Positions 37,003 to 63,335 of a stretch of 64,000 nucleotides of DNA are shown in pieces. The DNA is taken from positions 4,225,795 to 4,289,794 of the forward strand of contig KB904821.1 of NCBI GenBank assembly GCA_000380225.1, written 5' to 3'. A model generated the notes under the pieces. That model was given only the letters and a program-made list of their open reading frames with translations, made no database searches and was not told where the DNA came from. This DNA comes from a filamentous cyanobacterium ESFC-1. Its GTDB lineage: Bacteria > Cyanobacteriota > Cyanobacteriia > Cyanobacteriales > Spirulinaceae. Position numbers and translations under genes: made by a program. Within the stretch, counting starts at the first letter, position 1; the number at the start of each line of letters is the position of its first letter.

Positions 37003-40000
37003 ATGTTAGGCAAATTCTCCACGTTGGTAGACCTCCTGCGCGACAGAGCGCTGCATCAACCCAAAAAAACGGCTTTTATCTTTTTGCCAGACGGCGAAAC
37101 GCCATCAGGAGGCTTAACCTACGGGGAACTCGAAAAACGAGCGCGGGCGATCGCGACACAGTTACAGGGGCAAAATGCCCAAGGGGAAAGAGCGCTACTC
37201 CTCTATCCGCCGGGATTAGAATTTATTGAAGCGTTTTTCGGCTGCTTATTCGCCGGGACGATCGCGGTTCCGGCTTATCCCCCGCGACGGGGCGCATCGT
37301 TAACCCGTTTAGAAGCCGTGGTGGCCGATGCTCGCGCCAAATATACCCTCACCACGCGATCGCTCCTCGATAGCATTCAAGGACGCTTCTCGCAAAACCT
37401 TTTACTCAAAGAATCTCTCCACTGGCTGACCACCGACAACATCGACACGGCTCAAGCGGACAATTGGCAAGACCCCAACATAGACTCAGAAACCATTGCC
37501 TTTCTACAATACACCTCCGGTTCAACCGGAAACCCCAAAGGCGCGATCGTCAACCACCGCAACCTATTACACAACAGCGCCCTAATTAGTATAGGATTTC
37601 GTCACGCCAGTAAGAGCGTGGTTTCTTGGCTGCCGTCTTATCACGACATGGGCTTAATTGGCGGGATTTTACAGCCGATTTATTTGGGGGTGTGTATGGT
37701 AATGATGCCCCCGGTGACCTTTCTCCAGCGGCCCTTGCGGTGGTTACAAACCATTTCTAAGTATCAGGCGACCGCGAGCGGCGGGCCGAACTTCGCTTAT
37801 GAACTCTGCGCCAGTAAAGCCACTCCTGAAGCCCTAGAAAGCCTCGATCTCAGTTGCTGGGAAATTGCCTTTAGCGGGGCCGAACCGATCCGGGCCGAAA
37901 CCCTCGATCGCTTTACTGAGACCTTTGCCCCTTGTGGCTTTCGTCGTCAAGTCTTTTTCCCCTGTTATGGCATGGCCGAGACGACTTTAATTGTATCGGG
38001 GGCCGATTACGCCACCCCTCCGATTCTCAAAACCGTAGACAGTCAGGCTTTGAGTCAAGACCGCATTGTAGAAACCCCTGACGAGGAAATGCCTACCCTG
38101 GTGAGTTGCGGTCAGCCCTTGGGGGATTTGCGCGTCGCGATCGCCCACCCGGAAACCGGCGAACCCTGCGCCCCAGACGAAGTGGGCGAAATTTGGGTGT
38201 CAGGGGACAGTGTGGTGCAAGGCTACTGGAACCGCCCCGAACTCACTCAAGCAGTCTTCGGGGCGCACCTGAGTACCGGAGAGGGACCTTTTCTGCGGAC
38301 GGGGGATTTAGGCTTTTTGCAAGACGGGGAATTGTTCGTAACCGGTCGCCGCAAGGATTTGATTATTATTCGCGGTCGCAACCACTATCCCCAAGATATT
38401 GAAAAAACCGTTGAAACCAGTCACCCGGCGTTGCGTATTGCTTGGGGGGCAGCGTTTGCGGTCGTGGTAGATGGTGAAGAAAGACTCGCGATCGCCCAGG
38501 AAATCGAACGCAGTGCCTTACGCCAACTTAAAGATGATGCCCAAATTGCTGAAGTTACCCAAGCGATTCGCACTCGTGTAGCACAATATCACGAATTACA
38601 GCCCTATGCCATTTTGTTGCTGAAAACGGGCAGTATTCCCAAGACTTCGAGTGGTAAGATTCAGCGTTATGCTTGTCGCGAGGGTTTTCTCAATCATACC
38701 CTGGATGTTGTGGGGGAATGGCGAGTCAATTATCAGTCATCAGTCATCAGTCAACAGATTGAGGCAGTAGGCAGTAGGCAGTGGGCAGTCAACAGTCAAC
38801 AGTCATCAGTCGGCAATCGGCAATCGGCAATCGGGAATAGTCAACCAACAACTAACAACCAACAACTAACAACCAACAACCAACAACTAACAACCAACAA
38901 CCAACAACAAATCCAAACTTGGTTAATTGGGCAAGTTGCCGAACAACTGGGCTTAGATGCTGCGGTGGTAGACCCCCATCAACCCTTTGCCTACTATGGC
39001 TTAGACTCGGTGGCGGCGGTGCGGTTAACCGGGGAACTCGAAGAATGGCTTGAGCGCAGTTTGTCCCCTACTTTAGCTTACGATTACCCGACGATCGCGG
39101 CCTTGGCGGCGTATCTCAGTGGCAGCGAAGTAGTTGTGGCGACTCCTGGAAAAATTCGCTCAAAACCCCGTCTCAGCGACGATAAAATCGCGATTGTGGG
39201 GTTGGGTTGTCGTTTTCCAGGGGCAGATAATCTCGAAGCTTATTGGCAGTTGTTAACGGGTGGCAAAGTGGCGATTCAAAAAAGCGATCGCCCCACCCTC
39301 AACGCTACTCCTGGGGGTTTTCTCGACCAAGTGGATTTATTCGATCCGCAGTTTTTCAATATTTCACCGCGAGAAGCCGAACGGATGGACCCCCAGCAAC
39401 GGTTATTAATGGAGGTGACTTGGGAAGCCCTGGAAACCGGGGGAATTGCCCCTCAGACATTAGGGGGAAGTGCCACGGGGGTATTTGTGGGGATTAGCAG
39501 TACCGATTATCTACAATTGCAAGCGTCATCGGAAGTTCCGGTCAATGCTTATGCGGGGACGGGAAATGCCCACAGTATCGCGGCCAATCGCTTATCCTAT
39601 TTCTTGGATTTACGCGGGCCCTCTATGGCAATTGATACGGCTTGTTCGTCGTCGTTGGTGGCGGTACATTTGGCTTGTCAAAGTTTGCAATCGGGGGAAT
39701 GCGACACGGCGATCGCGGGGGGTGTTAATGTTATTTTGGCCGGCGATCTTACCGATACGTTTACCCAAGCGGGAATGCTGGCAGAAGACGGGGTTTGTAA
39801 GACCTTTGATGCGGATGCGGATGGTTATGGCCGCGGTGAGGGTTGCGGTGTGGTGATTCTGAAGCGGTATTCTCAGGCGGTTGCTGATGGCGATCGCGTC
39901 TGGGCTACCCTTGAAGGCAGCGCTTTGGTGCAAGATGGCCGCAGCAACGGTTTGACGGCACCGAATGGTATTGCTCAACAAACCGCGATCGCCCAGGCTT

Positions 40001-43000
40001 TAGAACGAGCCAATTTAGAAGCCAATGCGGTAAGCTACGTTGAAGCTCACGGGACGGGAACACCCCTTGGCGATCCGATTGAGATTAATGCCCTTAAAGC
40101 GGTGTTATTGCAGAATCGCGACCCAGAAAGTCCTTGTTGGTTGGGTTCGGTGAAAACCAATATCGGTCACTTAGAAGCGGCTGCGGGGATGGCAGGTTTA
40201 ATTAAGGTGGTTTTGGCTTGCGATCGCGGTATTATTCCGCCGCATCAAAATTTACGCAGTCTCAATCCTCACATTCATTTAGAAAATACGCCTCTTAAAA
40301 TTCCTACAACTGGGCAACGTTGGGAAGTTACAGAAAAGCGAATTGCGGGAGTCTCTTCTTTTGGCTTTGGGGGAATGAATGCCCATGTCATTATTGCCGA
40401 AAGTCAGGTTGAAACGAAGACTCAGCCCTCAGAAGATGAGCGTCCTTTACACCTGTTAACTTTATCGGCTAAGTCGAAATCGGCTTTGCAAGACCAAATT
40501 AAGCGCTATCGTGCTTATTTACAGGATGATCCAGAAGTAAATTTAGGCGGTCTCTGTTTTACGGCGAATACAGGGCGATCGCATTTTGATTATCGTGCAT
40601 CTTGGCTTGCCGCAAATACCGCCGATTTAGCCGCACAACTGAATGAAGAATTTAGCCCGAAAGCGAAAGCAACAACGAGTTTAAAAATCGCGTTTTTGTG
40701 TACCGGACAAGGTTCGCAGTATGCCAATATGGGGCGGGAGTTGTACGAAACGCAACCTGTTTTTCGCGAGATTATTGATTATTGCGATCGCGAGTTGCAG
40801 CCTCATCTCAAGCCCTCGTTGCGATCGGTGTTGTACGAAGCAGACCACAATAATCGAGTTAACGCCACGGCTTACACCCAACCTGCCCTATTTGCCATTG
40901 AATACGCGATCGCGCAGTTGTGGCAATCTTGGGGCATTGCTCCCGATGTTATTTTAGGTCACAGCGTCGGGGAATATGTCGCCGCTTGTATTGCCGGGGT
41001 TTTTAGTCTCGAAGACGGCTTAAAACTGATTACCGAACGGGCTAGACTGATGCAGGCTTTACCCCAAACTGGGTTAATGGCGGCGGTTTTTGCCGATGCA
41101 GAGACGATTGAAACGGTTATTCAGGATCGAGAAGTCACCATCGCGGCGTTGAATGCGCCTAATATTACCGTGATTTCCGGCACAAAACAGGGGATAGAAG
41201 ACGCGATCGCCGCTTTTGATACAAGGGATATCAAAACGAAGGTTCTCAACGTCTCCCACGCCTTCCACTCGCCCCTCATGCAGCCCATGTTGGCTCAGTT
41301 CGAGCAGTTAGCCCGTAGCATTGAGTACCATCCCCCGCAAATTCCCTTGGTTTCTAACCTCACGGGGGAATTTGTCACGGCTGAAATTGCGACTCCTGAT
41401 TATTGGTGTCGTCATATTCTCGAACCTGTGCGCTTTGCTCAAAGTATGCAGGTGCTAGAAGCTCAAAAATGCAATACTTTTATCGAAATTGGCGCAAAAT
41501 CAACCCTTTTGGGCATGGGGCGGCAATGTATTGCTAGTGAGGGCTTGTGGTTGCCGAGTTTACATCCCGAATTTGGCGATACGCAGCAGATGTTGGGCAG
41601 TTTACAACAACTGTATGAAAACGGCGCAAGTGTTGATTGGGCTGGGTTTGATTCTCCCTTTTCTCGCCAAAAACTTGCCCTCCCCACTTATCCTTTTCAG
41701 CGTCAACGCTATTGGCTCGAAGCCTTGGATCGCAAGGGCGGTGGGAGTTTGCGCCTTCCCGATTGGTTTTATCAAGTGGAGTATGAGCAATTACCAATTA
41801 CTAACAAAGAACTAACAACAAACAACAAACAACCAACAACAAATGACCAAGGACAAAAGACACAGGACAAATTGGTAATCTTTTGTGCTGAAAGGGAAAC
41901 TGATTTTGCTGAAACCTTGGCTGCAAGCTGCAACAAGCAAGGGGGAAGCAGCGAGATTGTTGTGTTTGATGAAGCCTTCGATCCGGCGGTCAAATCTAGC
42001 TTTGAGCAGTTTTTCGCGGGATTAACTCAGCCTGTTACTCATATTATTTATGGGGGCGATCGCGTCAATCCCGATAACCTCTCTCTAGAGGCGATCGCGA
42101 ATGCCCAAAAACAAGCCCACATCGGACTTTTACACCTCGTCCAAACCTTGAGCGATCGCCCTCACCCATCCCCAACCCCGCAGCTTTGGCTGATCACCCA
42201 TCAAGCCCAAAGTTTACAGCCCCAAGAGCGTGTTAACCCCATTGCGGCTTCGTTGTGGGGAATGGGACGCACTATTGCTTTAGAATTGCCCCAGTTGTGG
42301 GGGGGAATGGTGGATTTAGGCGCAGAAAGTCTCGATAGTGATGGGGCGATCGCGACGATTCTCAAGCCTCAAGGGGAAAATCAAATCTTATTACGGCAAA
42401 ATCGGCGCTATGTGCCACGTTTACGCCCCCAATCTTCGCCAAAGTCTAATAATCTGTCGATTCAAAGTGATGCCACTTATCTCATTACCGGGGGTTTGGG
42501 CAGTTTAGGGCTGAAAACGGCGCAATGGCTGATCGAACAAGGGGCAACTTCTTTGGTGTTAACCGGACGCAATGTGCCGCAAAATAATGCCAAAATTACC
42601 GCCTTAGAAGCACAAGGGGCAAAAATTACCTGTATTGCTGCCGATGTCACCGATCCGCAGGATGTGGCTTATTTACTACAAGAAATTGCCCCACTATTGC
42701 CGTTACGGGGGATTATCCATGCTGCGGGAATCCTAGCTGATAATGCGATCGCGCAACAAACCCCATCGCAATTTGAAGAAGTGTTTGCACCAAAGGGCTT
42801 AGGGGCTTGGAATTTACACACAGCCACCCTCGATTATGACCTCGATTTCTTTGTGCTGTATTCCTCGATTGCGGCAATACTCGGATCGCCAGGTCAAAGT
42901 AATTATGCCGCAGCTAATGGCTTTTTGGATGGATTAGCTCGCGATCGCGCTGCCTTGGGTTTGCCCGCACTTAGTATAAACTGGAGTGCTTGGGGTCAAG

Positions 43001-45324
43001 GGGGTATGGCGCAACAACAAGAAAAACGCTTAGAAGCCTTGGGATTAAAACCCTTAGCACCGAATTTGGCAGTGAAGGCTTTATTTAGCGCAATTTCTAG
43101 CCAAGACTCCCAGAAGCTCGTTATTGATGCCGATTGGCAAAAAGTCGCTGGGGTTTGGGGCGAAATTCCCCCCTTGTTGCGAGACTTGGTGCAGTTTCCC
43201 GAAACCGAAGAAACCCAGTCTTCTCCTTGGTTAGAGCGCCTACAAACCGCATCTCCTGACCAACAAACCCCCATCCTGCAAGATTACTTACAACAGCAAA
43301 TCGCTCAAGCCCTGCATCTGCAACCCCAACAAATCCAACCCTCTCGCAACTTATTAGACTTGGGCTTGGATTCGTTGATGTTAATGGAAACCATTAACCA
43401 ACTCAAAAACGATTTGCAGTTGTTGTTGTATCCCAGAGAATTTTATGAGCGTCCCCGGATTGATGCTTTAGCCGAATATATCGCGGCAGAATTTAACCGC
43501 ACTCATAACCCCACTAAGGACATCGCTGCTACAGATACCGCTTCCGAAGTGAGCTTAGAGATCGGCAGCAATACCACCGAAACTGGGCCAATTTTAGAGC
43601 GCAAACTCGATCCGGCAGTATTTATCCTTTCTAGTCCGCGAGCCGGGTCTACTTTGCTGCGCGTGATGTTAGCAGGTCATCCTCAGCTATTCTCGCCGCC
43701 AGAGTTACATTTACTGCCATTTACGACCCTAGCCGAGCGCGAAACCGAGTTAGCATTAACGAATCTCGATGAAGGCTTGGTGCGAAGTCTCATGGAATTA
43801 TTCGAGCTAGATGCAGACGGCGCGATCGCCCTCACCGCCGAAATGAGCCATTCTGGGCTGAGTATTCCCGATGTGTACGCCAAACTGCAAAAAGGCGCTC
43901 AACCCCGTCTCCTGGTGGATAAATCGCCCACCTACGCCCTCCATCGCACCATCCTCGATCGCGCTGAGGCTTGGTTTGAGAAGGCGAAATACATCCATTT
44001 GATCCGCCATCCCTATGCGGTGGTAGAATCCTTTACCCGCTTGCGGATGGAAAAACTATTGGGCAATAATTCTGGGAATCCTTATGCTGTTGCTGAAAAA
44101 GTGTGGCGGACTTGTAATCAAAATATTCTCGACTTTGGGCAAACCGTAGATGACCGCTATTTGCTGGTGTATTACGAAAACCTCGTTAAACAGCCCCGTT
44201 GCGAAATGCGGCGAATCTGCGAATTTTTGGATATACCCTGGTCTGAAGCCGTTTTACAGCCCTATCAAGGCGATCGCATGACTGATGGGACTCAGCATAA
44301 CTCCCTCTCCATTGGCGACCCCAATTTTAAAGAACGTCGCCAACTCGACCCCAGTTTAGCTGATGTTTGGCAAACCATTGAACTACCCCGTCCTCTCAAT
44401 GCCAAAACCCAAGCACTAGCCGAGGGTTTAGATTATCCCCTCCCCCATCAAGTCAAGCCGCAACTAGGGGAAGCGACGATGCAAGAGCAATTCATCGACG
44501 TGCGGGGTCAAAAACTCTGCGTCTGTACTTGGGGAGATCCAGAGCATCCGCCGGTTTTACTGCTTCACGGTATCCTCGAACAAGGCGCAGCTTGGCAACC
44601 CACTGCTCAAGCCTTGGCTGCTCAGGGATATTGGTGTATTGCACCAGATTTACGGGGTCACGGACGCTCCGATTATGCTCCCGGTGGGGCTTATCGCTTG
44701 CTTGATTTCCTCGGCGATCTTGATGTTTTGGCGCAAACCCTAAACCTCCAACCCTGCTTAGTCGTGGGTCATTCCTTGGGAAGCGCGATCGCGGCGTTGT
44801 GGGCAAGTGCGCGACCCTCTCGCGTTAAATCATTGGTTTTCGTTGAAACTGTACTTCCTGTAGAAAATAGCAGTGAAATTAGCGCTCAATTAACCGCTCA
44901 CCTCGATAGACTCCAGGTTGCGCCCCAACACTCCGTTTTTCCGAGTCTAGAAGTTGTGGCCAAACGCCTCCAAGCCGGGACTCCTGGGATTTCTGACGAT
45001 CTCGCCCTCTTTTTAGCCCAACGGCACACCGAGCCTTGTGAGGGGGGTTGGCGTTGGCGTTGGGATGTTCGTTTGAGCGATCGCTCTAGCTTTGGTTTTG
45101 GCGGCTTATCCTTCGATCGTTCCCAATATCTCCAACTGCTGCAAGACCTTTCTTGTCCGATTACGCTGATTTATGGCGATCGCAGCACCTTCAACCGTCG
45201 CGAGGATTTAGTCGCTCAACAACAAGCTATGGCTTCTGCTCGTCGCTTCCAACTCCAAGGGGGTCACAATCTCCATCTCGATGCACCCGACGATCTTGCC
45301 GATATTATCAGTGATGAATTATGA
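37003..45324 (+). CDS. ols: Olefin synthase (Ols), modular polyketide synthase for terminal alkenes
   Basis: This 2773-residue protein has the order FAAL (about 1-575), ACP1 (637-708, Ser669), KS (727-1135, Cys881, His1016, His1056), AT (1228-1575, Ser1321; HAFH indicates malonyl-CoA), KR (1625-2030, GGLGSLG and the SSI...Y pair), ACP2 (2090-2164, Ser2124), sulfotransferase (2200-2485, PRAGSTLLR PAPS loop) and thioesterase (2493-2773, Ser2591). In the known pathway the FAAL loads a fatty acid, one round of extension and reduction gives a beta-hydroxyacyl chain, PAPS-dependent sulfation activates it, and the thioesterase releases a terminal alkene after loss of CO2 and sulfate. All catalytic residues are present. 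Two linkers are made of heptamer repeats. Confidence 0.95.
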   Translation: MLGKFSTLVDLLRDRALHQPKKTAFIFLPDGETPSGGLTYGELEKRARAIATQLQGQNAQGERALLLYPPGLEFIEAFFGCLFAGTIAVPAYPPRRGASLTRLEAVVADARAKYTLTTRSLLDSIQGRFSQNLLLKESLHWLTTDNIDTAQADNWQDPNIDSETIAFLQYTSGSTGNPKGAIVNHRNLLHNSALISIGFRHASKSVVSWLPSYHDMGLIGGILQPIYLGVCMVMMPPVTFLQRPLRWLQTISKYQATASGGPNFAYELCASKATPEALESLDLSCWEIAFSGAEPIRAETLDRFTETFAPCGFRRQVFFPCYGMAETTLIVSGADYATPPILKTVDSQALSQDRIVETPDEEMPTLVSCGQPLGDLRVAIAHPETGEPCAPDEVGEIWVSGDSVVQGYWNRPELTQAVFGAHLSTGEGPFLRTGDLGFLQDGELFVTGRRKDLIIIRGRNHYPQDIEKTVETSHPALRIAWGAAFAVVVDGEERLAIAQEIERSALRQLKDDAQIAEVTQAIRTRVAQYHELQPYAILLLKTGSIPKTSSGKIQRYACREGFLNHTLDVVGEWRVNYQSSVISQQIEAVGSRQWAVNSQQSSVGNRQSAIGNSQPTTNNQQLTTNNQQLTTNNQQQIQTWLIGQVAEQLGLDAAVVDPHQPFAYYGLDSVAAVRLTGELEEWLERSLSPTLAYDYPTIAALAAYLSGSEVVVATPGKIRSKPRLSDDKIAIVGLGCRFPGADNLEAYWQLLTGGKVAIQKSDRPTLNATPGGFLDQVDLFDPQFFNISPREAERMDPQQRLLMEVTWEALETGGIAPQTLGGSATGVFVGISSTDYLQLQASSEVPVNAYAGTGNAHSIAANRLSYFLDLRGPSMAIDTACSSSLVAVHLACQSLQSGECDTAIAGGVNVILAGDLTDTFTQAGMLAEDGVCKTFDADADGYGRGEGCGVVILKRYSQAVADGDRVWATLEGSALVQDGRSNGLTAPNGIAQQTAIAQALERANLEANAVSYVEAHGTGTPLGDPIEINALKAVLLQNRDPESPCWLGSVKTNIGHLEAAAGMAGLIKVVLACDRGIIPPHQNLRSLNPHIHLENTPLKIPTTGQRWEVTEKRIAGVSSFGFGGMNAHVIIAESQVETKTQPSEDERPLHLLTLSAKSKSALQDQIKRYRAYLQDDPEVNLGGLCFTANTGRSHFDYRASWLAANTADLAAQLNEEFSPKAKATTSLKIAFLCTGQGSQYANMGRELYETQPVFREIIDYCDRELQPHLKPSLRSVLYEADHNNRVNATAYTQPALFAIEYAIAQLWQSWGIAPDVILGHSVGEYVAACIAGVFSLEDGLKLITERARLMQALPQTGLMAAVFADAETIETVIQDREVTIAALNAPNITVISGTKQGIEDAIAAFDTRDIKTKVLNVSHAFHSPLMQPMLAQFEQLARSIEYHPPQIPLVSNLTGEFVTAEIATPDYWCRHILEPVRFAQSMQVLEAQKCNTFIEIGAKSTLLGMGRQCIASEGLWLPSLHPEFGDTQQMLGSLQQLYENGASVDWAGFDSPFSRQKLALPTYPFQRQRYWLEALDRKGGGSLRLPDWFYQVEYEQLPITNKELTTNNKQPTTNDQGQKTQDKLVIFCAERETDFAETLAASCNKQGGSSEIVVFDEAFDPAVKSSFEQFFAGLTQPVTHIIYGGDRVNPDNLSLEAIANAQKQAHIGLLHLVQTLSDRPHPSPTPQLWLITHQAQSLQPQERVNPIAASLWGMGRTIALELPQLWGGMVDLGAESLDSDGAIATILKPQGENQILLRQNRRYVPRLRPQSSPKSNNLSIQSDATYLITGGLGSLGLKTAQWLIEQGATSLVLTGRNVPQNNAKITALEAQGAKITCIAADVTDPQDVAYLLQEIAPLLPLRGIIHAAGILADNAIAQQTPSQFEEVFAPKGLGAWNLHTATLDYDLDFFVLYSSIAAILGSPGQSNYAAANGFLDGLARDRAALGLPALSINWSAWGQGGMAQQQEKRLEALGLKPLAPNLAVKALFSAISSQDSQKLVIDADWQKVAGVWGEIPPLLRDLVQFPETEETQSSPWLERLQTASPDQQTPILQDYLQQQIAQALHLQPQQIQPSRNLLDLGLDSLMLMETINQLKNDLQLLLYPREFYERPRIDALAEYIAAEFNRTHNPTKDIAATDTASEVSLEIGSNTTETGPILERKLDPAVFILSSPRAGSTLLRVMLAGHPQLFSPPELHLLPFTTLAERETELALTNLDEGLVRSLMELFELDADGAIALTAEMSHSGLSIPDVYAKLQKGAQPRLLVDKSPTYALHRTILDRAEAWFEKAKYIHLIRHPYAVVESFTRLRMEKLLGNNSGNPYAVAEKVWRTCNQNILDFGQTVDDRYLLVYYENLVKQPRCEMRRICEFLDIPWSEAVLQPYQGDRMTDGTQHNSLSIGDPNFKERRQLDPSLADVWQTIELPRPLNAKTQALAEGLDYPLPHQVKPQLGEATMQEQFIDVRGQKLCVCTWGDPEHPPVLLLHGILEQGAAWQPTAQALAAQGYWCIAPDLRGHGRSDYAPGGAYRLLDFLGDLDVLAQTLNLQPCLVVGHSLGSAIAALWASARPSRVKSLVFVETVLPVENSSEISAQLTAHLDRLQVAPQHSVFPSLEVVAKRLQAGTPGISDDLALFLAQRHTEPCEGGWRWRWDVRLSDRSSFGFGGLSFDRSQYLQLLQDLSCPITLIYGDRSTFNRREDLVAQQQAMASARRFQLQGGHNLHLDAPDDLADIISDEL
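38731..38909 (+). repeat. In-frame heptamer repeats in the FAAL-ACP linker of ols
   Basis: CAGTCAT, GGCAGTA, CGGCAAT and CAACTAA/CAACCAA units follow one another inside the gene, the same families as in intergenic arrays. Because 7 and 3 are coprime, three heptamers give a seven-residue peptide period, seen as TTNNQQL repeated three to four times (about residues 616-635). The region codes a polar, presumably disordered linker. Confidence 0.9.
41791..41868 (+). repeat. In-frame heptamer repeats after the AT domain of ols
   Basis: CAATTAC, CTAACAA, CAACAAA and ACCAAGGACAAA units encode a short polar segment (LTTNNKQPTTNDQ, about residues 1604-1616) between the AT post-linker and the KR structural subdomain. 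This is a second insertion of STRR-like sequence within the same gene. Confidence 0.8.
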
Positions 45325-45528
45325 ACCAATGACCAATGACCAATGACCAATAACCAATGACCAATGACCAATTGTGGCAAATAACCCATAAGCAATGACC
45401 AATGACCAACAACCAATAACCAATGACCAATGACCAATTGTGGCAAATAACCCATAAGCAATGACCAATAACCAACAACCAATAACCAACAACCAACAAC
45501 CAATGACCAATGACCAATGACCAATAAA
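45325..45528. repeat. Heptamer array TGACCAA with 66-bp tandem duplication
   Basis: TGACCAA, TAACCAA and CAACCAA units fill the interval between ols and the next gene. A 30-bp non-heptamer segment (starting ATTGTGGCAAATAACCC) occurs at 45371-45400 and again at 45437-45466, giving a 66-bp period. Confidence 0.9.
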
Positions 45529-46446
45529 ATGACCCAAATCGAAAATCTCTTAGCCGTATTGTCTTGGGGATTTTATAAAACTAATAAACTGATTATCAGC
45601 CAAATCTATAGGGTGTATTTAGCCATTAGTAGCCGCAAAAACTTGCGCTGGCGGGTATTATCGGCAAAAACCCTCAAAAATCCGGTGGGATTGCCCGTGA
45701 TTATGACCAAGGGGCCGCGCTGGAATACTCACGCGATCGTCGCTTCCCTTGCGCCAATTTCGGTTCAATCTTCTCTGTCTGTTGAAGTCCCGGTGGCTGA
45801 AGCTTCCGCCGAATCTTGGACGGTGGTGGTGTATAGTCATCCCGATTACGAAACGATCGCGAATCTCGGTTCTTTGTCTTCTAAATCCGGTCAAGATTGG
45901 GCAACGGTACAACTTAAACCGGGGAAATATGCCCTAGTTTTACGGTATTACGAATGGGGCGAAACGGTAAAGTTGCCGACCATTAAAGCCGACGATCGCG
46001 AGGTGTTGGCGGCTCAACCTCTGGCTGCGAATGTTAATGAGTTTCTGCACGAATTACAACATAATAAAAGCCTTTTTTATCGAGCGCTCCATTATTATAT
46101 ATTTGTGATTTTAAAACAGCGAGACCGCTTGCCGGAAGCTTGGGTAAAACGGGAGTTTTTACCTGTGGGCGATCGCGATAATTATTTTGGTTATGGCTAT
46201 TGCGAAAAGGGAAATGTCCTTCAGTTTCAATTTGACCCCCAGTTACAAAAGTATTATAAAATCTATCTGACTTTGTATAATCGTTCGAGTTTTCCGACGT
46301 TTTGGACAACAATTTCTCAGGAAACTTATCAAACTAAACCGATTGCCCAAGACGGCTTTTACCTACTACGATTCCGCGCTCAATCCCCCGAAGCTACGGA
46401 AATCATCTCTCCCAACGATAGCCTCTGGCAAGTTAATCAGCAATGA
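45529..46446 (+). CDS. Uncharacterised protein following ols
   Basis: This 305-residue protein has no recognised family. The N-terminal 40 residues are amphipathic or weakly hydrophobic (LLAVLSWGFYKTNKLIISQIYRVYLA in part), then a beta-rich region (about 50-150: VIMTKGPRWNTHAIVASLAPI, TVVVYSHPDYE, KPGKYALVLRYY) and a second beta-rich part near residues 205-290. It could be a lipid-facing or carbohydrate-binding accessory protein. The ATG at 45529 is preferred to 45517, which lies inside the heptamer array. It is downstream of ols on the same strand, but the array between them leaves co-transcription uncertain. Confidence 0.7.
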   Translation: MTQIENLLAVLSWGFYKTNKLIISQIYRVYLAISSRKNLRWRVLSAKTLKNPVGLPVIMTKGPRWNTHAIVASLAPISVQSSLSVEVPVAEASAESWTVVVYSHPDYETIANLGSLSSKSGQDWATVQLKPGKYALVLRYYEWGETVKLPTIKADDREVLAAQPLAANVNEFLHELQHNKSLFYRALHYYIFVILKQRDRLPEAWVKREFLPVGDRDNYFGYGYCEKGNVLQFQFDPQLQKYYKIYLTLYNRSSFPTFWTTISQETYQTKPIAQDGFYLLRFRAQSPEATEIISPNDSLWQVNQQ

Positions 46447-46611: not shown

Positions 46612-47586
46612 ATGCCCACCCAAACCCGAAAACCTTTTTTACTCGACTTTGAAAAACCCTTGTGCGAATTAGAATCACGAATTGCTCAAATTCGTGAATT
46701 AGCTGCTGAAAATAACGTCGATGTTTCGGCGCAAATTCAAGAATTAGAAGCCAAAGCGGTGCAATTGCGCCAAGAAATTTTTAGCGCCCTCACGCCGTCT
46801 CAGCGCTTGCAATTGGCTCGTCATCCTCGTCGTCCTTCGACTCTCGATTATATTCAGGCAATTTGCGATGATTGGTTTGAAATGCACGGCGATCGCGGCG
46901 GTTATGACGATCCGGCATTGGTGGGGGGTGTGGCGCGTTTAGACGGTAAACCCGTGGTGATTTTGGGCCACCAAAAAGGCCGGGATACGAAAGATAATGT
47001 GGCGCGGAATTTCGGCATGGCTTCTCCGGGGGGCTATCGTAAAGCAATGCGCCTGATGGATCACGCCAATCGCTTTCAAATGCCCATTATTACCCTGATT
47101 GATACCCCTGGGGCTTGGGCGGGGGTTGACGCGGAAAAACTCGGTCAAGGGGAAGCGATCGCCTACAATTTACGGGAAATGTTCGCCCTAGATGTCCCAA
47201 TTTTGTGTACGGTGATTGGTGAAGGTGGATCGGGGGGCGCACTGGGCATTGGGGTGGGCGATCGCCTGATGATGTTTGAGCATTCAGTTTATACCGTAGC
47301 CACTCCCGAAGCTTGTGCGGCGATTCTCTGGAAAGATGCCAGTCGCTCTCCTCAAGCGGCTTCTGCCCTCAAAATTACGGCTTGGGATTTGAAAGAATTG
47401 GGCATTATTGACCAAATTTTACCCGAACCTTCCAGTGGCGCTCATGCCGATCCGTTGGGAGCGGCTCAAAACTTGAAAAAGGCATTGTTAGAAAATTTGC
47501 AAGACCTCCTCAGTCTGAGTGCAAAACAGCGTCGCGATCTGCGTTATCAAAAATTTCGTCAGATGGGAAAATACACCCTGGCGTAA
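46612..47586 (+). CDS. accA: Acetyl-CoA carboxylase carboxyltransferase subunit alpha
   Basis: This 324-residue protein is the alpha half of the carboxyltransferase that, with AccD, moves CO2 from biotin to acetyl-CoA to give malonyl-CoA. Recognisable are the N-terminal [15 protein letters not shown], the [24 protein letters not shown] segment in parts (about 163-186) and the oxyanion-loop [25 protein letters not shown] in parts. It normally stands alone in cyanobacteria. Here it lies 1.3 kb downstream of ols, whose AT domain uses malonyl-CoA; this may be coincidence. The upstream array leaves no clear ribosome site. Confidence 0.95.
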
Positions 47587-59774: not shown

Positions 59775-60320
59775 TCACTCACTGGCTCGAATTAACTCTA
59801 CCGCATCTCGTCCATCCACATCCTGGAGATAGACTTTAACTTGTTCTTCAAAAGCCGTTGGGAGGGTTTTACCCACGAAATCCGGGTGAATGGGGAGTTG
59901 ACGATGGCCGCGATCGACTAAAGCCGCTAAAGCCACAATTTCAGGCCGTCCGTATTCGTGAACCGCATTTAAAGCCGCCCGAATGGTACGACCGCTAAAA
60001 ATGACATCATCGACTAGAACGACGTATTTCCCCGTTAAATCGAAAGAAATATCGGTTTTTGCCGGAGTTCGTAAGGCAACACGATCGAGATCGTCTCTGT
60101 AAAATGTGATGTCAAGCGCTCCCACAGCAACGGATTCGTTTTCTAGCATTGCGATTTGCTGCGCCAGTAAGTAAGAAAGCGGAACCCCTCGCGTATAAAT
60201 GCCTAATAAAACTAACTTAGAAAGATCGCCCGATCGCTCAACAATTTGAGATGCGAGACGAGTGAGGGTGCGGCGAATCTCCTCTGGGGAAAGAATTTCA
60301 ACGACTTTAGCAGGCATCAT
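59775..60320 (-). CDS. pyrR: Bifunctional PyrR-type regulator/uracil phosphoribosyltransferase
   Basis: This 181-residue type I phosphoribosyltransferase has the PRPP-binding loop [18 protein letters not shown] (about residues 97-114). PyrR proteins of Gram-positive bacteria bind pyr mRNA to attenuate transcription and convert uracil to UMP; in cyanobacteria the RNA-binding role is less certain. The start region [19 protein letters not shown] matches the family. It is divergent from the KAS-HDO fusion gene with 245 bp between starts. No pyr operon is present. Confidence 0.9.
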
Positions 60321-60565: not shown

Positions 60566-62437
60566 ATGAACTCTGCATATATTACCAGCATTGGCAAGTT
60601 TTTACCCGGCGATCCAATTAATAATGACGAGATGGAAAGTTATCTCGGTAAAATTGGCGATCGCGCCTCTAAAGTTCGTCGTCGTATTCTCAAAAGCAAC
60701 GGGATTCAACAGCGTTATTATGCCATTAATCGCCAACAAAAAACAGTTTATCAAAATAGTGAAATGGCGGCTTTGGCCATACGAGATACTTTAGCCGCAA
60801 TCGATTTAGAACCCAAAGCAGTTGATTTACTCGCTTGTGCAACCACAATTCCCGATTTAACCGTTCCGGGTTTTGCTAGTATGGTACACGGACGACTGAC
60901 CGAGTTTCCCCCTCTAGAAGCGGTGTCAACTCAGGGGGTTTGTTGTGCGGGAGTTGCGGCGTTAAATTATAGCCAATCCCAAGTTAAGTTAGGTCAAAAA
61001 CGCCACGCGATCGCGGTTGCTTCTGAGTTTGCTTCTCGCTTATTTAAACACAGTCATTTTGAAGCAGATAACCGTTTTAAAAATAACGAAAAGCTGCCTT
61101 TTGATACAGAATTTTTACGCTGGATGTTATCCGATGGGGCTGGTGCATTTTTAATTCAAGATTGCCCCCGCAGTCAAGGGATTAGTTTAAGAATCGACTG
61201 GATTGAATCAGTTTCCCATGCTCATGCTTATGAAGCTTGTATGTACGCGGGAACCGACAGCGAAAAAGCCGAAAAAAGCTGGCTGGATTATCCTTCTTAT
61301 GCTGATGCTGCGGCTGCGGGTGCGTTTCATTTACGGCAAGATATTCGTCGTCTTGATGAAGTGATTAAACTGGGGGTAACGGGCTGGCTAAAACTAATCG
61401 AAGCCGGACGAATTAACCCGCAAGAAATTGATTGGTTTTTGTGTCATTATTCCTCTCATTTTTTCCGCAGCCAGATTGTAGAGTTGCTCGAAAAAGCCAA
61501 CTGTATGATTCCCGAACATAAATGGTTTACGAACCTCTATAGTCGCGGTAATACGGGTTGTGCTTCGATTTATTTAATGCTGGAGGAATTGTTTAACTCT
61601 GGCAAGTTGCAGCCCGGACAAAAACTATTTTGTTTCGTCCCAGAAAGTGGACGTTATACCACGGCTTACATGATGATGACAGTGGTAGAAAGTCACAAAA
61701 CTGTTATTGCTAATTTATCTTCAACTGTAGAATCCCCCATGACTTCTGAAACGATTACAAATCCTAACCAAGACAATTCTAATCCTACCGTCAACGCTGA
61801 ATTATTGCGTCAACTCACATTAGTTTGGTTGGACTTTGAGCGACAACTACAAACTGTCCCGATTATCCGTAAACTCAATCGCGGAGACTTCACCGTTGAA
61901 GATTATCAAGCCCTCCTGCGGAATTTGCGTCCACAAGTTGTAGAAGGAGCAAGATGGATTACCCGCGCTGCTTCTAATATGATTGATTTTAAGATGCGAT
62001 CGCTCTTTATTGGCCATGCTCAAGACGAACATCGAGATTATCAAATGCTAGAGCGCAATTATGTCAGCATTGGGGGCAATTTAGAAGACATTATCAACGC
62101 TGAGAAAAATGTTGGTTCGGAAGCCCTTTCTGCTTTTATTTTCCATCAAGCTTCCCGCGAAAATCCCCTCGATTTAATTGGTAGTATGTTTATGATTGAA
62201 GGCTTGGGGAATCGGCTTGCGGGGAAATGGGCAAAACAGATTCAAGAGACTTTAAATCTCGAAGCCAGTCAGGTTTCCTTCTTGGGCTATCATGCCGAAA
62301 ATGATGAATCCCATATTGGCAAACTCGAAGCCATTTTAAATGCTGATTGGCTGACTCCCGAACTTGCTAAGCGAATTGTTAAAACCGCCAAAGTTACCGC
62401 TCGTTTGTATCAACTCCAACTCGAAGAAATTAGCTAA
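60566..62437 (+). CDS. Ketoacyl synthase III-like / haem-oxygenase-like di-iron oxidase fusion
   Basis: This 623-residue protein is a two-domain fusion. Residues about 1-385 form a thiolase-fold KAS III/FabH-like domain with Cys126/Cys127 at the nucleophile position (VCCAGVAAL), His294 (HYSSHFF) and Asn329 (SRGNTGC), completing a Cys-His-Asn triad. A polar linker (about 386-410) joins it to an all-helical domain (about 411-623) with GHAQDEHRDYQ (His484, Glu488, His489) and HAENDESH (His576, Asp580, His583, the HxxxDxxH motif) of haem-oxygenase-like di-iron oxidases such as UndA and BesC. A ketoacyl product oxidised in cis is the obvious hypothesis. It is followed after one base by its partner gene. 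Confidence 0.85.
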   Translation: MNSAYITSIGKFLPGDPINNDEMESYLGKIGDRASKVRRRILKSNGIQQRYYAINRQQKTVYQNSEMAALAIRDTLAAIDLEPKAVDLLACATTIPDLTVPGFASMVHGRLTEFPPLEAVSTQGVCCAGVAALNYSQSQVKLGQKRHAIAVASEFASRLFKHSHFEADNRFKNNEKLPFDTEFLRWMLSDGAGAFLIQDCPRSQGISLRIDWIESVSHAHAYEACMYAGTDSEKAEKSWLDYPSYADAAAAGAFHLRQDIRRLDEVIKLGVTGWLKLIEAGRINPQEIDWFLCHYSSHFFRSQIVELLEKANCMIPEHKWFTNLYSRGNTGCASIYLMLEELFNSGKLQPGQKLFCFVPESGRYTTAYMMMTVVESHKTVIANLSSTVESPMTSETITNPNQDNSNPTVNAELLRQLTLVWLDFERQLQTVPIIRKLNRGDFTVEDYQALLRNLRPQVVEGARWITRAASNMIDFKMRSLFIGHAQDEHRDYQMLERNYVSIGGNLEDIINAEKNVGSEALSAFIFHQASRENPLDLIGSMFMIEGLGNRLAGKWAKQIQETLNLEASQVSFLGYHAENDESHIGKLEAILNADWLTPELAKRIVKTAKVTARLYQLQLEEIS

Positions 62438-62438
62438 A

Positions 62439-63335
62439 ATGACTCCGACTTTCAAAACTTCAGCCACCCCCGAAACCCTAATACAACAGCCTTATAATCG
62501 TCGCAATCCCAACACCTGGCAAGTCTTATATTTAGAGCAAGCCATTCCTATTGATGACACATCAAAGGAATATATGATTCGGGATTTGCAAAGCTGGACA
62601 CGCAACTATTTACTGATTCCGATTAAACTGTTTGCGAATATCTGCTTGGCATTAATTATGACGGTAAAGCGGTTACTGCCATTTCAGTTTCACGCTTACG
62701 GCATTATGCACAAATCCGCGACTTTCTTCCTCAAAAACTTCGTGACTCCAGAAGCCTGTTATCTGATTGTGCGTCACATTAGCTTAGGCTCAAATATCGT
62801 TAACTTTCTCATTGATAACGGGCCAAATCCTGAGATTGAGCGCTCGAATTTATACCCTCGTACTGTAGACGATCTCGCGCAAGAGGCCTTTCTCGAACAT
62901 GACTTGATTTTGTATAACTTTGTCTACGATTATCACCAAGCCAAACGGAAAAATCCCCATTGGTTAGAAATAGTTAAACAAAAGGGATTAGACTTCAGCA
63001 GTATCAAAACCCCAGAAGTGGAAATGGACTTTAAAAAGCGTCGCTGGCTGCGAATCTTAGACTTAGAATCTGCCATCGAATTGTTTAAAGTCTTTTACTC
63101 TCTATGTCTCACCAGTGACGAGTTTGAACGGGCTGTCCTTTCATTACAATTTGATGAAAACTTTGGGCTGTATTTCACCGAAATTACTGGGGATAGTAGC
63201 TGGAATCATATCATTACCAACCGTCACCCTCTAGCCCCCAATAGCCCATTTCAAGCAGCGCGAGATTTAATGTTACACGGCATTGTCACCGAATATATGC
63301 ACCGCTATCTGGAAATATATCGCGATCGCGCCTAA
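62439..63335 (+). CDS. Uncharacterised partner of the KAS-HDO fusion
   Basis: This 298-residue protein of unrecognised family has a single base between the preceding stop and its ATG, so it is almost certainly translationally coupled to the fusion enzyme. A hydrophobic segment at about residues 55-80 (LLIPIKLFANICLALIM) may attach it to membrane. The rest is helical and rich in His/Glu, including EAFLEHD, FVYDYHQ and TEYMHRYLE (an ExxH), which could bind metal, but no complete known ligand set is seen. A role in the same lipid or hydrocarbon pathway is inferred from coupling only. Confidence 0.7.
   Translation: MTPTFKTSATPETLIQQPYNRRNPNTWQVLYLEQAIPIDDTSKEYMIRDLQSWTRNYLLIPIKLFANICLALIMTVKRLLPFQFHAYGIMHKSATFFLKNFVTPEACYLIVRHISLGSNIVNFLIDNGPNPEIERSNLYPRTVDDLAQEAFLEHDLILYNFVYDYHQAKRKNPHWLEIVKQKGLDFSSIKTPEVEMDFKKRRWLRILDLESAIELFKVFYSLCLTSDEFERAVLSLQFDENFGLYFTEITGDSSWNHIITNRHPLAPNSPFQAARDLMLHGIVTEYMHRYLEIYRDRA

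Follow-up and report, generated by a model that had tools for sequence, protein, structure and literature searches.

In the genome of the filamentous cyanobacterium ESFC-1, it was found that a β-ketosynthase of the StlD/DarB type is fused to a haem-oxygenase-like (HDO) domain in a single open reading frame (ORF), and that the following gene encodes a protein of the Pfam family DUF6999. The two genes lie near the end of the 64,000-nucleotide stretch of contig KB904821.1 that was analyzed (hereafter, the window). The pairing of ketosynthase, HDO domain, and DUF6999 is real and extends across four bacterial phyla. I tentatively propose that the two genes form an operon for an oxidized ring lipid, in which the HDO domain would oxidize a dialkylcyclohexanedione in place of DarA. 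Gene content suggests both the ring product and its oxidation.

Conservation of the gene pair

Are the two genes found together elsewhere? The initial annotation had named the co-occurrence of fusion homologues with the second gene as a check, and the outcome was strongly positive. In a search with the window's protein, an intact fusion was found in 9 of 386 cyanobacterial genomes, and the same nine genomes have a DUF6999 match above the PF22523 cut-off; two others have weak matches below it. One further genome, G099, has a broken fusion (locus L039), which is truncated and contains two stop codons. This genome, the only one of the set with a broken fusion, has no DUF6999 match, which suggests joint loss of the fusion and DUF6999.

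A collection of contigs was also scanned with two short DUF6999 peptide patterns taken from an alignment. The scan gave 60 loci, 56 of which are labelled cyanobacterial, and no row was left out of the counts. Because the scan uses two short patterns, it misses divergent copies of DUF6999; the Caulobacter copy is not among its 60 loci. The genome set and the locus set overlap (L047 and L037, L052 and L036, L063 and L033, L064 and L035, and L067 and L034 seem to be the same contigs). Thus, their counts are given apart.

The fused ORF lies upstream of the DUF6999 gene, within about 0.7 kb, in 53 of the 60 loci. Two loci (L088 and L089) have adjacent separate ketosynthase and HDO genes, one (L102) has a stop codon inside the ketosynthase, and in another two the fusion is found elsewhere in the assembly, on another contig (L061) or at the end of another contig (L071). 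The DUF6999 start codon is no more than 8 nt from the upstream stop codon in 45 of the 57 measurable pairs, the window being counted, and farther in 12. Carriers of the pair include Microcoleus, Tychonema, Spirulina, Leptolyngbya, and Nodosilinea. L102 belongs to a metagenome-assembled genome (MAG) labelled Euryarchaeota. Its contig closely resembles the Acidobacteria gp22 locus L100, with similar neighbouring genes, and the MAG is probably mis-binned.

In Actinomycetota, 3 of 296 genomes have DUF6999 above the cut-off, all three beside a ketosynthase and an HDO domain. These two are fused in one genome; in each of the others they occupy separate frames, either as two genes or because of a frameshift. 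In Acidobacteriota, DUF6999 exceeds the cut-off in 4 of 247 genomes. All three full-length copies adjoin the fusion, and the fourth genome (G695) has a 40-residue DUF6999 fragment with no fusion nearby. A Pseudoalteromonas plasmid (L118) has the ketosynthase, the HDO protein, and DUF6999 as three separate consecutive genes; its flanking proteins gave no informative Pfam match. The Caulobacter vibrioides genome used as a control also has DUF6999 above the cut-off.

It might be supposed that an ordinary FabH paralogue has come to lie by chance beside an unrelated gene. The wider neighbourhoods of the fusion do vary between genera, and no positive support for this explanation was found. However, the pairing is kept across the four phyla despite a changing set of surrounding genes, and the co-occurrence counts contradict chance, the probability of which is close to negligible.

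The ketosynthase domain

The fusion ORF starts with ATG, and the TAA stop codon ends at 62437. The initial annotation described it as a ketoacyl synthase III (KAS III) joined to a haem-oxygenase-like di-iron oxidase; a condensing enzyme with an HDO fold was indeed found, but the generic KAS III label has to give way to the StlD/DarB type. An ACP_syn_III_C match is present at 44.7 bits, above the Pfam cut-off. The NCBIfam model NF005293, "StlD/DarB family beta-ketosynthase", matches the ketosynthase domain with 450.4 bits (452.1 in a second run) at a cut-off of 450. The best solved relatives are the StlD structures 5gk0 (306 bits) and 5gk2 (301 bits), followed by FabH with 60 bits. An ordinary FabH was ruled out by the difference between 60 bits (best FabH structure) and 306 bits (StlD) and by its separation from one FabH row in a phylogenetic tree.

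The complete Cys126/His294/Asn329 triad claimed for the 623-residue protein was read directly in the ORF. The three residues align to the Cys, His, and Asn of StlD, although 5gk2, the second StlD sequence, has Ala at the place of H294. The triad is kept in all 63 aligned ketosynthase rows; these rows, like the 57 HDO rows described below, are near-complete matches with identical sequences counted once. On these alignments and profile matches, the domain is assigned to the StlD/DarB type and not to the generic chain-building KAS III enzymes. It thus resembles StlD/DarB at the family level, in the triad, and in its best solved relative (NF005293; 5gk0). In contrast to StlD/DarB, the system has its own HDO domain, fused or adjacent, and a DUF6999 partner, and DarA was not detected. 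The linker region between the two domains is the break point in some lineages, which have two genes (L088, L089, and L118) or two frames (L129 and L130).

The HDO-fold domain

The Pfam family PF14518 (Haem_oxygenas_2) matches residues 493-615 of the fusion with 34 bits (cut-off, 28.9). An AlphaFold model of residues 410-623, made with a 57-sequence alignment, has a haem-oxygenase fold with a predicted local distance difference test (pLDDT) score of 89.9 and a predicted template modelling (pTM) score of 0.87. The top Foldseek matches are 3dde (TM-score, 0.88), CADD (0.85-0.86), and TenA proteins. 3dde, a protein of unknown function, is also the sole convincing sequence match of the domain in the PDB. 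In VIA-align, the model gave Z-scores of 25.1 with 3dde (root-mean-square deviation 2.0, 213 residues aligned), 23.3 with CADD, 20.1 with FlcD, and 19.6 with HrmI. UndA is farther away, with a TM-score by query length of 0.71-0.74, and has the fold alone in common. The fold is that of the HDO superfamily, which includes UndA, BesC, SznF, CADD, FlcD, and HrmI (PF14518).

The HxxxDxxH motif (His576, Asp580, and His583) reported by the initial annotation in a separate helical domain could be read directly, and in the model this C-terminal domain has the haem-oxygenase fold. Candidate metal ligands are E488, D491, E545, H576, D580, and H583, all of which are invariant in the 57 distinct HDO sequences. 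At another candidate position, 460, 46 of them have Glu and 11 have Asp, and H484 and H489 are likewise invariant. The HDO protein that Pseudoalteromonas encodes separately retains E488, E545, H576, D580, and H583 and has Asp at the D491 position as well. The H-x3-D-x2-H motif on the last core helix and the Glu on the middle one are common to the HDO superfamily and the fusion domain. In contrast to the superfamily, the fusion domain has Asp in the usual place of the α1 His and is joined to a ketosynthase. As judged from the alignments, the middle and last core helices carry ligands such as an HDO would have, and the α1 pair is unusual.

The DUF6999 partner

As the initial annotation had noticed, the next gene begins one base after the stop codon of the fusion: its ATG is at 62439. 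A 323-residue version of the partner in the ORF list results from a start at an upstream TTG. The PF22523 match is strong (358.5 bits; cut-off, 27), and the AlphaFold model has a pLDDT score of 87.4. The model has no Foldseek match in the PDB at E ≤ 0.001, and the assignment of DUF6999 to a known fold was dropped on this ground. The longest hydrophobic stretch spans residues 58-76 (mean Kyte-Doolittle value, 2.2), and the protein is possibly membrane-bound. Invariant polar residues include R112, H113, H154, D155, D208, D239, H280, and E285, a set that appears compatible with an enzyme. Table 1 lists the coordinates of the two genes and their parts.

Table 1. Positions of the fusion gene, its parts, the partner gene, and one example of the COQ4-like gene described below
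Feature	Position	Strand	Evidence
Fusion gene, StlD/DarB-type β-ketosynthase and HDO domain, 623 aa	60566..62437	+	ORF, profile matches, fused homologues
Ketosynthase domain, residues 1-375	60566..61690	+	NF005293, 450.4 bits; StlD 5gk0, E 4e-90
Catalytic triad codon, C126	60941-60943	+	
Catalytic triad codon, H294	61445-61447	+	
Catalytic triad codon, N329	61550-61552	+	
Variable linker, residues 376-409	61691..61792	+	Alignment
HDO-fold domain, residues 410-623	61793..62434	+	Conservation, AlphaFold model, Foldseek and VIA matches
Partner gene, DUF6999 (PF22523), 298 aa, nearly all-helical by prediction	62439..63335	+	Pfam, AlphaFold model
COQ4-like gene, example	L053:6940-7446	-	

A possible route to an oxidized ring lipid

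According to a passage in PMC4578411, a widespread class of ketosynthases makes 2,5-dialkylcyclohexane-1,3-diones from β-ketoacyl and α,β-unsaturated acyl thioesters. The passage does not give DarB by name. The link is drawn via the survey cited there and via PMC3949708, where DarB is listed as the dialkylresorcinol (DAR) cyclase and DarA as the DAR aromatase. If the ketosynthase domain behaves like its family, it would take β-ketoacyl and α,β-unsaturated acyl thioesters from ordinary fatty-acid synthesis. Head-to-head condensation and ring closure would then give a 2,5-dialkylcyclohexane-1,3-dione or its carboxylated precursor.

In the second step, the fused HDO-fold domain may oxidize the ring product by means of a non-haem metal centre and O2. 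The likeliest oxidation would be aromatization to a dialkylresorcinol, or ring hydroxylation, in replacement of DarA. On the simplest reading, this or a related ring oxidation would fall to the HDO domain, because an oxidase-like domain is joined to the ketosynthase and DarA was undetected. The fusion, or the adjacency of the genes, would hold the reactive intermediate close. DUF6999 might be a required partner, perhaps as an additional tailoring enzyme or as a scaffold at the membrane, and the COQ4-like protein might add another ring step in some lineages.

The initial annotation had followed UndA to a terminal alkene or another hydrocarbon. In such a route, the HDO domain would cleave or decarboxylate a β-keto or condensed acyl acid made by the ketosynthase, and a hydrocarbon, ketone, or alkene would result. 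C-C bond cleavage is known for several HDOs (PMC11363339), and UndA chains are among the Foldseek matches of the HDO model. However, the ketosynthase is of the ring-forming StlD/DarB type, 3dde and CADD are nearer structures than UndA, and a COQ4-like neighbour better suits ring chemistry. The lead found no support in that form, and the route is regarded as very unlikely. Since the ketosynthase domain belongs with the StlD/DarB ketosynthases, an alkene is a less probable product than a ring lipid.

DarB-type loci outside the gene pair

The bartoloside (brt) clusters resemble the fusion in having a DarB-type ketosynthase in cyanobacteria. These dialkylresorcinol clusters draw on fatty-acid derivatives (PMC7081238 and PMC8406957), and cyanobacterial dialkylresorcinol clusters contain both DarA and DarB (PMC8406957). 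Unlike the fusion loci, two loci (L041 and L042, in genomes G076 and G093) combine a stand-alone DarB and a DarA-like gene with a glycosyltransferase, an SBBP beta-propeller protein, and a protein whose AurF match is weak and under the cut-off. Their gene content led me to call them brt-like. One unfused brt-like DarB reaches 551 bits on NF005293. Their genes clustered only together and not with the genes of 10 fusion loci compared.

Two Streptomyces plasmids (L119 and L120) have an unfused DarB-type gene in a cluster with two acyl carrier proteins, a DarA-like gene, an oxygenase or oxidoreductase dependent on flavin adenine dinucleotide, FabF, a P450, and FabG. Of the Streptomyces DarA-like proteins, the one compared shares 32% identity with its cyanobacterial counterpart (E 2e-47). 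On plasmids of Bacteroides, Phocaeicola, and Prevotella (L133, L134, and L121), a DarB-type gene adjoins the gene of a helix-turn-helix regulator, TetR-like or of another kind.

The ketosynthase trees contained 22 of 62 rows, picked by hand, plus the brt-like, Streptomyces, Bacteroidetes, and Pseudoalteromonas sequences and those of L129-L131. One tree used a single FabH row as an outgroup, three further FabH rows having been left out (two were empty and one was the wrong ORF), and the other had no outgroups. The StlD/DarB group, with the fusion included, is set apart from the one FabH and one distant Streptomyces ketosynthase (branch support, 99/95). In the outgroup-free tree, the brt-like and Bacteroidetes DarB sequences form a clade (100/99), and the two Streptomyces sequences are placed among the HDO-linked rows, though not firmly (89/71). 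These placements are unsure because of long branches.

Observations against the proposed route

A number of observations weigh against an operon for an oxidized ring lipid. The ketosynthase domain barely clears the NF005293 cut-off (450.4 versus 450 bits), and the distant fused homologues L098 (290 bits) and L100 (419 bits) fall under it. The stricter DarB model for dialkylresorcinol biosynthesis, NF053539, was not reached (400.5 bits; cut-off, 550), and thus the ketosynthase is not filed as DarB itself. The HDO-linked ketosynthases were not recovered as one clade, and a single clade was not rejected (approximately unbiased test, p = 0.48). As for the gene pair, locus L087 has DUF6999 beside a broken HDO part, and in the cyanobacterial MAG L097, which has DUF6999, no intact fusion was found; each is one of the 60 loci. 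In addition, a product or an activity is not on record for any member of the HDO-linked group.

The failure to find DarA speaks for the proposed replacement but has weak points. The DarA-like genes were named from their position and mutual similarity, and no family model matched them. A profile built from four DarA-like proteins had no hit in any of 19 genomes or records of the HDO type (18 genomes and one Pseudoalteromonas plasmid record), a count that includes one genome with a broken fusion and the plasmid-only record; a very divergent DarA would escape such a search. The profile did hit three of three unfused-DarB records, all of them its own sources. Searches with single DarA-like sequences found none in 10 fusion genomes and, in a run without a positive control, none in seven genomes or records. 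Furthermore, three Bacteroidetes DarB-type loci have neither DarA nor HDO annotated beside them. Thus, the lack of DarA alone proves nothing.

The metal site is also in doubt. Characterized HDOs carry an E-H-E-H-(D/E)-H dimetal motif (PMC11363339). By alignment to 3dde, the motif of the fusion domain reads E-D-E-H-D-H, with Asp491 in second place; its α1 helix has E488-x2-D491 where 3dde has E-x2-H. For this reason, H576, D580, and H583 alone do not establish a di-iron site. The "di-iron oxidase" of the initial annotation thus stands as regards PF14518 and the modelled fold, but the two irons are not established, given Asp491 at the usual place of the α1 His. With these residues, the site might hold a single metal, be of an unusual type, or bind no metal. 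Moreover, the separate Pseudoalteromonas HDO protein has no Pfam match at E ≤ 0.01.

Could the domain work without any metal? PqqC and TenA do so (PMC11363339), and both have the same fold (Z-scores of about 20). Together with the Asp that replaces the canonical His, they would suit a cofactor-free oxidase or a substrate holder, and the product would then be a plain cyclohexanedione. It is decidedly unlikely, however: none of H576, D580, H583, E545, and E488 varies among the 57 sequences, and the separate Pseudoalteromonas protein retains them all.

The COQ4-like accessory gene

In 16 of the 60 loci, as well as in L037 and L040, a protein of about 160 residues resembling COQ4 is encoded close to the fusion. 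The gene lies upstream or downstream and in both orientations. At E ≤ 1e-10, it was found in 2 of the 386 cyanobacterial genomes, both of which carry the fusion and have the gene beside the operon. It had no match in the window's own genome and none within the examined stretch in 44 of the 60 loci. The four proteins tested match PF05019 (COQ4) weakly, with E-values of 0.011-0.16 and scores of 11.7-15.5 bits, below the cut-off of 22.9. A search against the PDB gave no useful match. An HDxxH-x11-E motif, which I take to be that of COQ4, is kept in the proteins of all 18 loci. The accessory protein is thus like COQ4 in this motif and in the weak match, but the match is below the cut-off and the protein has about 160 residues.

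Human COQ4 reportedly acts as an oxidative decarboxylase that converts a ring carboxyl to a hydroxyl in one oxidative step (PMC11495197). It is therefore conceivable that the product is a quinone-like redox lipid: the ketosynthase would form the ring, the HDO domain would hydroxylate it, and the COQ4-like protein and DUF6999 would finish a membrane hydroquinone or quinone. The proximity of the gene to the fusion, its restriction to fusion carriers among the 386 genomes, the constant motif, and the reported COQ4 reaction all agree with such a product. However, the Pfam match remained under the cut-off in all four proteins tested, and the window's genome and the examined stretch of most loci have no such gene. 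A quinone-like lipid is thus considered unlikely.

Possible significance and earlier reports

If the proposed operon for an oxidized ring lipid is real, the dedicated aromatase of dialkylresorcinol pathways would have been replaced by an oxygen-activating domain inside the synthase. It would also be the first role for DUF6999, a Pfam family of unknown function, and a new reaction among the haem-oxygenase-like oxidases, and a lipid class not yet reported would be predicted in the cyanobacteria that carry the pair. The more far-reaching claim, in which four phyla make new aromatic or quinone-like membrane lipids whose ring is oxidized by an O2-dependent HDO-fold domain, fused or adjacent, with an unusual E-D-E-H-D-H metal site, and in which DUF6999 is an obligatory new enzyme and the COQ4-like protein an accessory oxidative decarboxylase of some lineages, is possible but doubtful. 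The gene pair is compact enough to be tested in a laboratory host.

The initial annotation had called the pathway a candidate undescribed one. In agreement, searches of one open-access library, which has few subscription papers, brought up nothing on the fusion or on DUF6999. It is possible that the fusion is mentioned in the 2013 ketosynthase survey by Fuchs and others (Angew Chem). An antiSMASH-type "resorcinol" cluster was reported in nontoxic Microcoleus (PMC8546630); the fusion gene may be what this generic name covers.

Other features of the window

No RNA family reached the gathering score between positions 60000 and 64000 of the window. Promoter-like sites (4, versus a mean of 7.2 in shuffled sequences) and terminator-like sites (2 versus 3.9) were both fewer than in the shuffles. 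At 37003-45324, the window encodes a polyketide synthase (PKS) with the Pfam order FAAL-ACP-KS-AT-KR-ACP-sulfotransferase-hydrolase, presumably the domain layout of an olefin synthase (Ols). Beyond the shared window, no tie of the fusion operon to this Ols-like PKS turned up, and no dedicated test was made. After the PKS come a DUF6208 gene and an accA-like gene (45517-46446 and 46612-47586).

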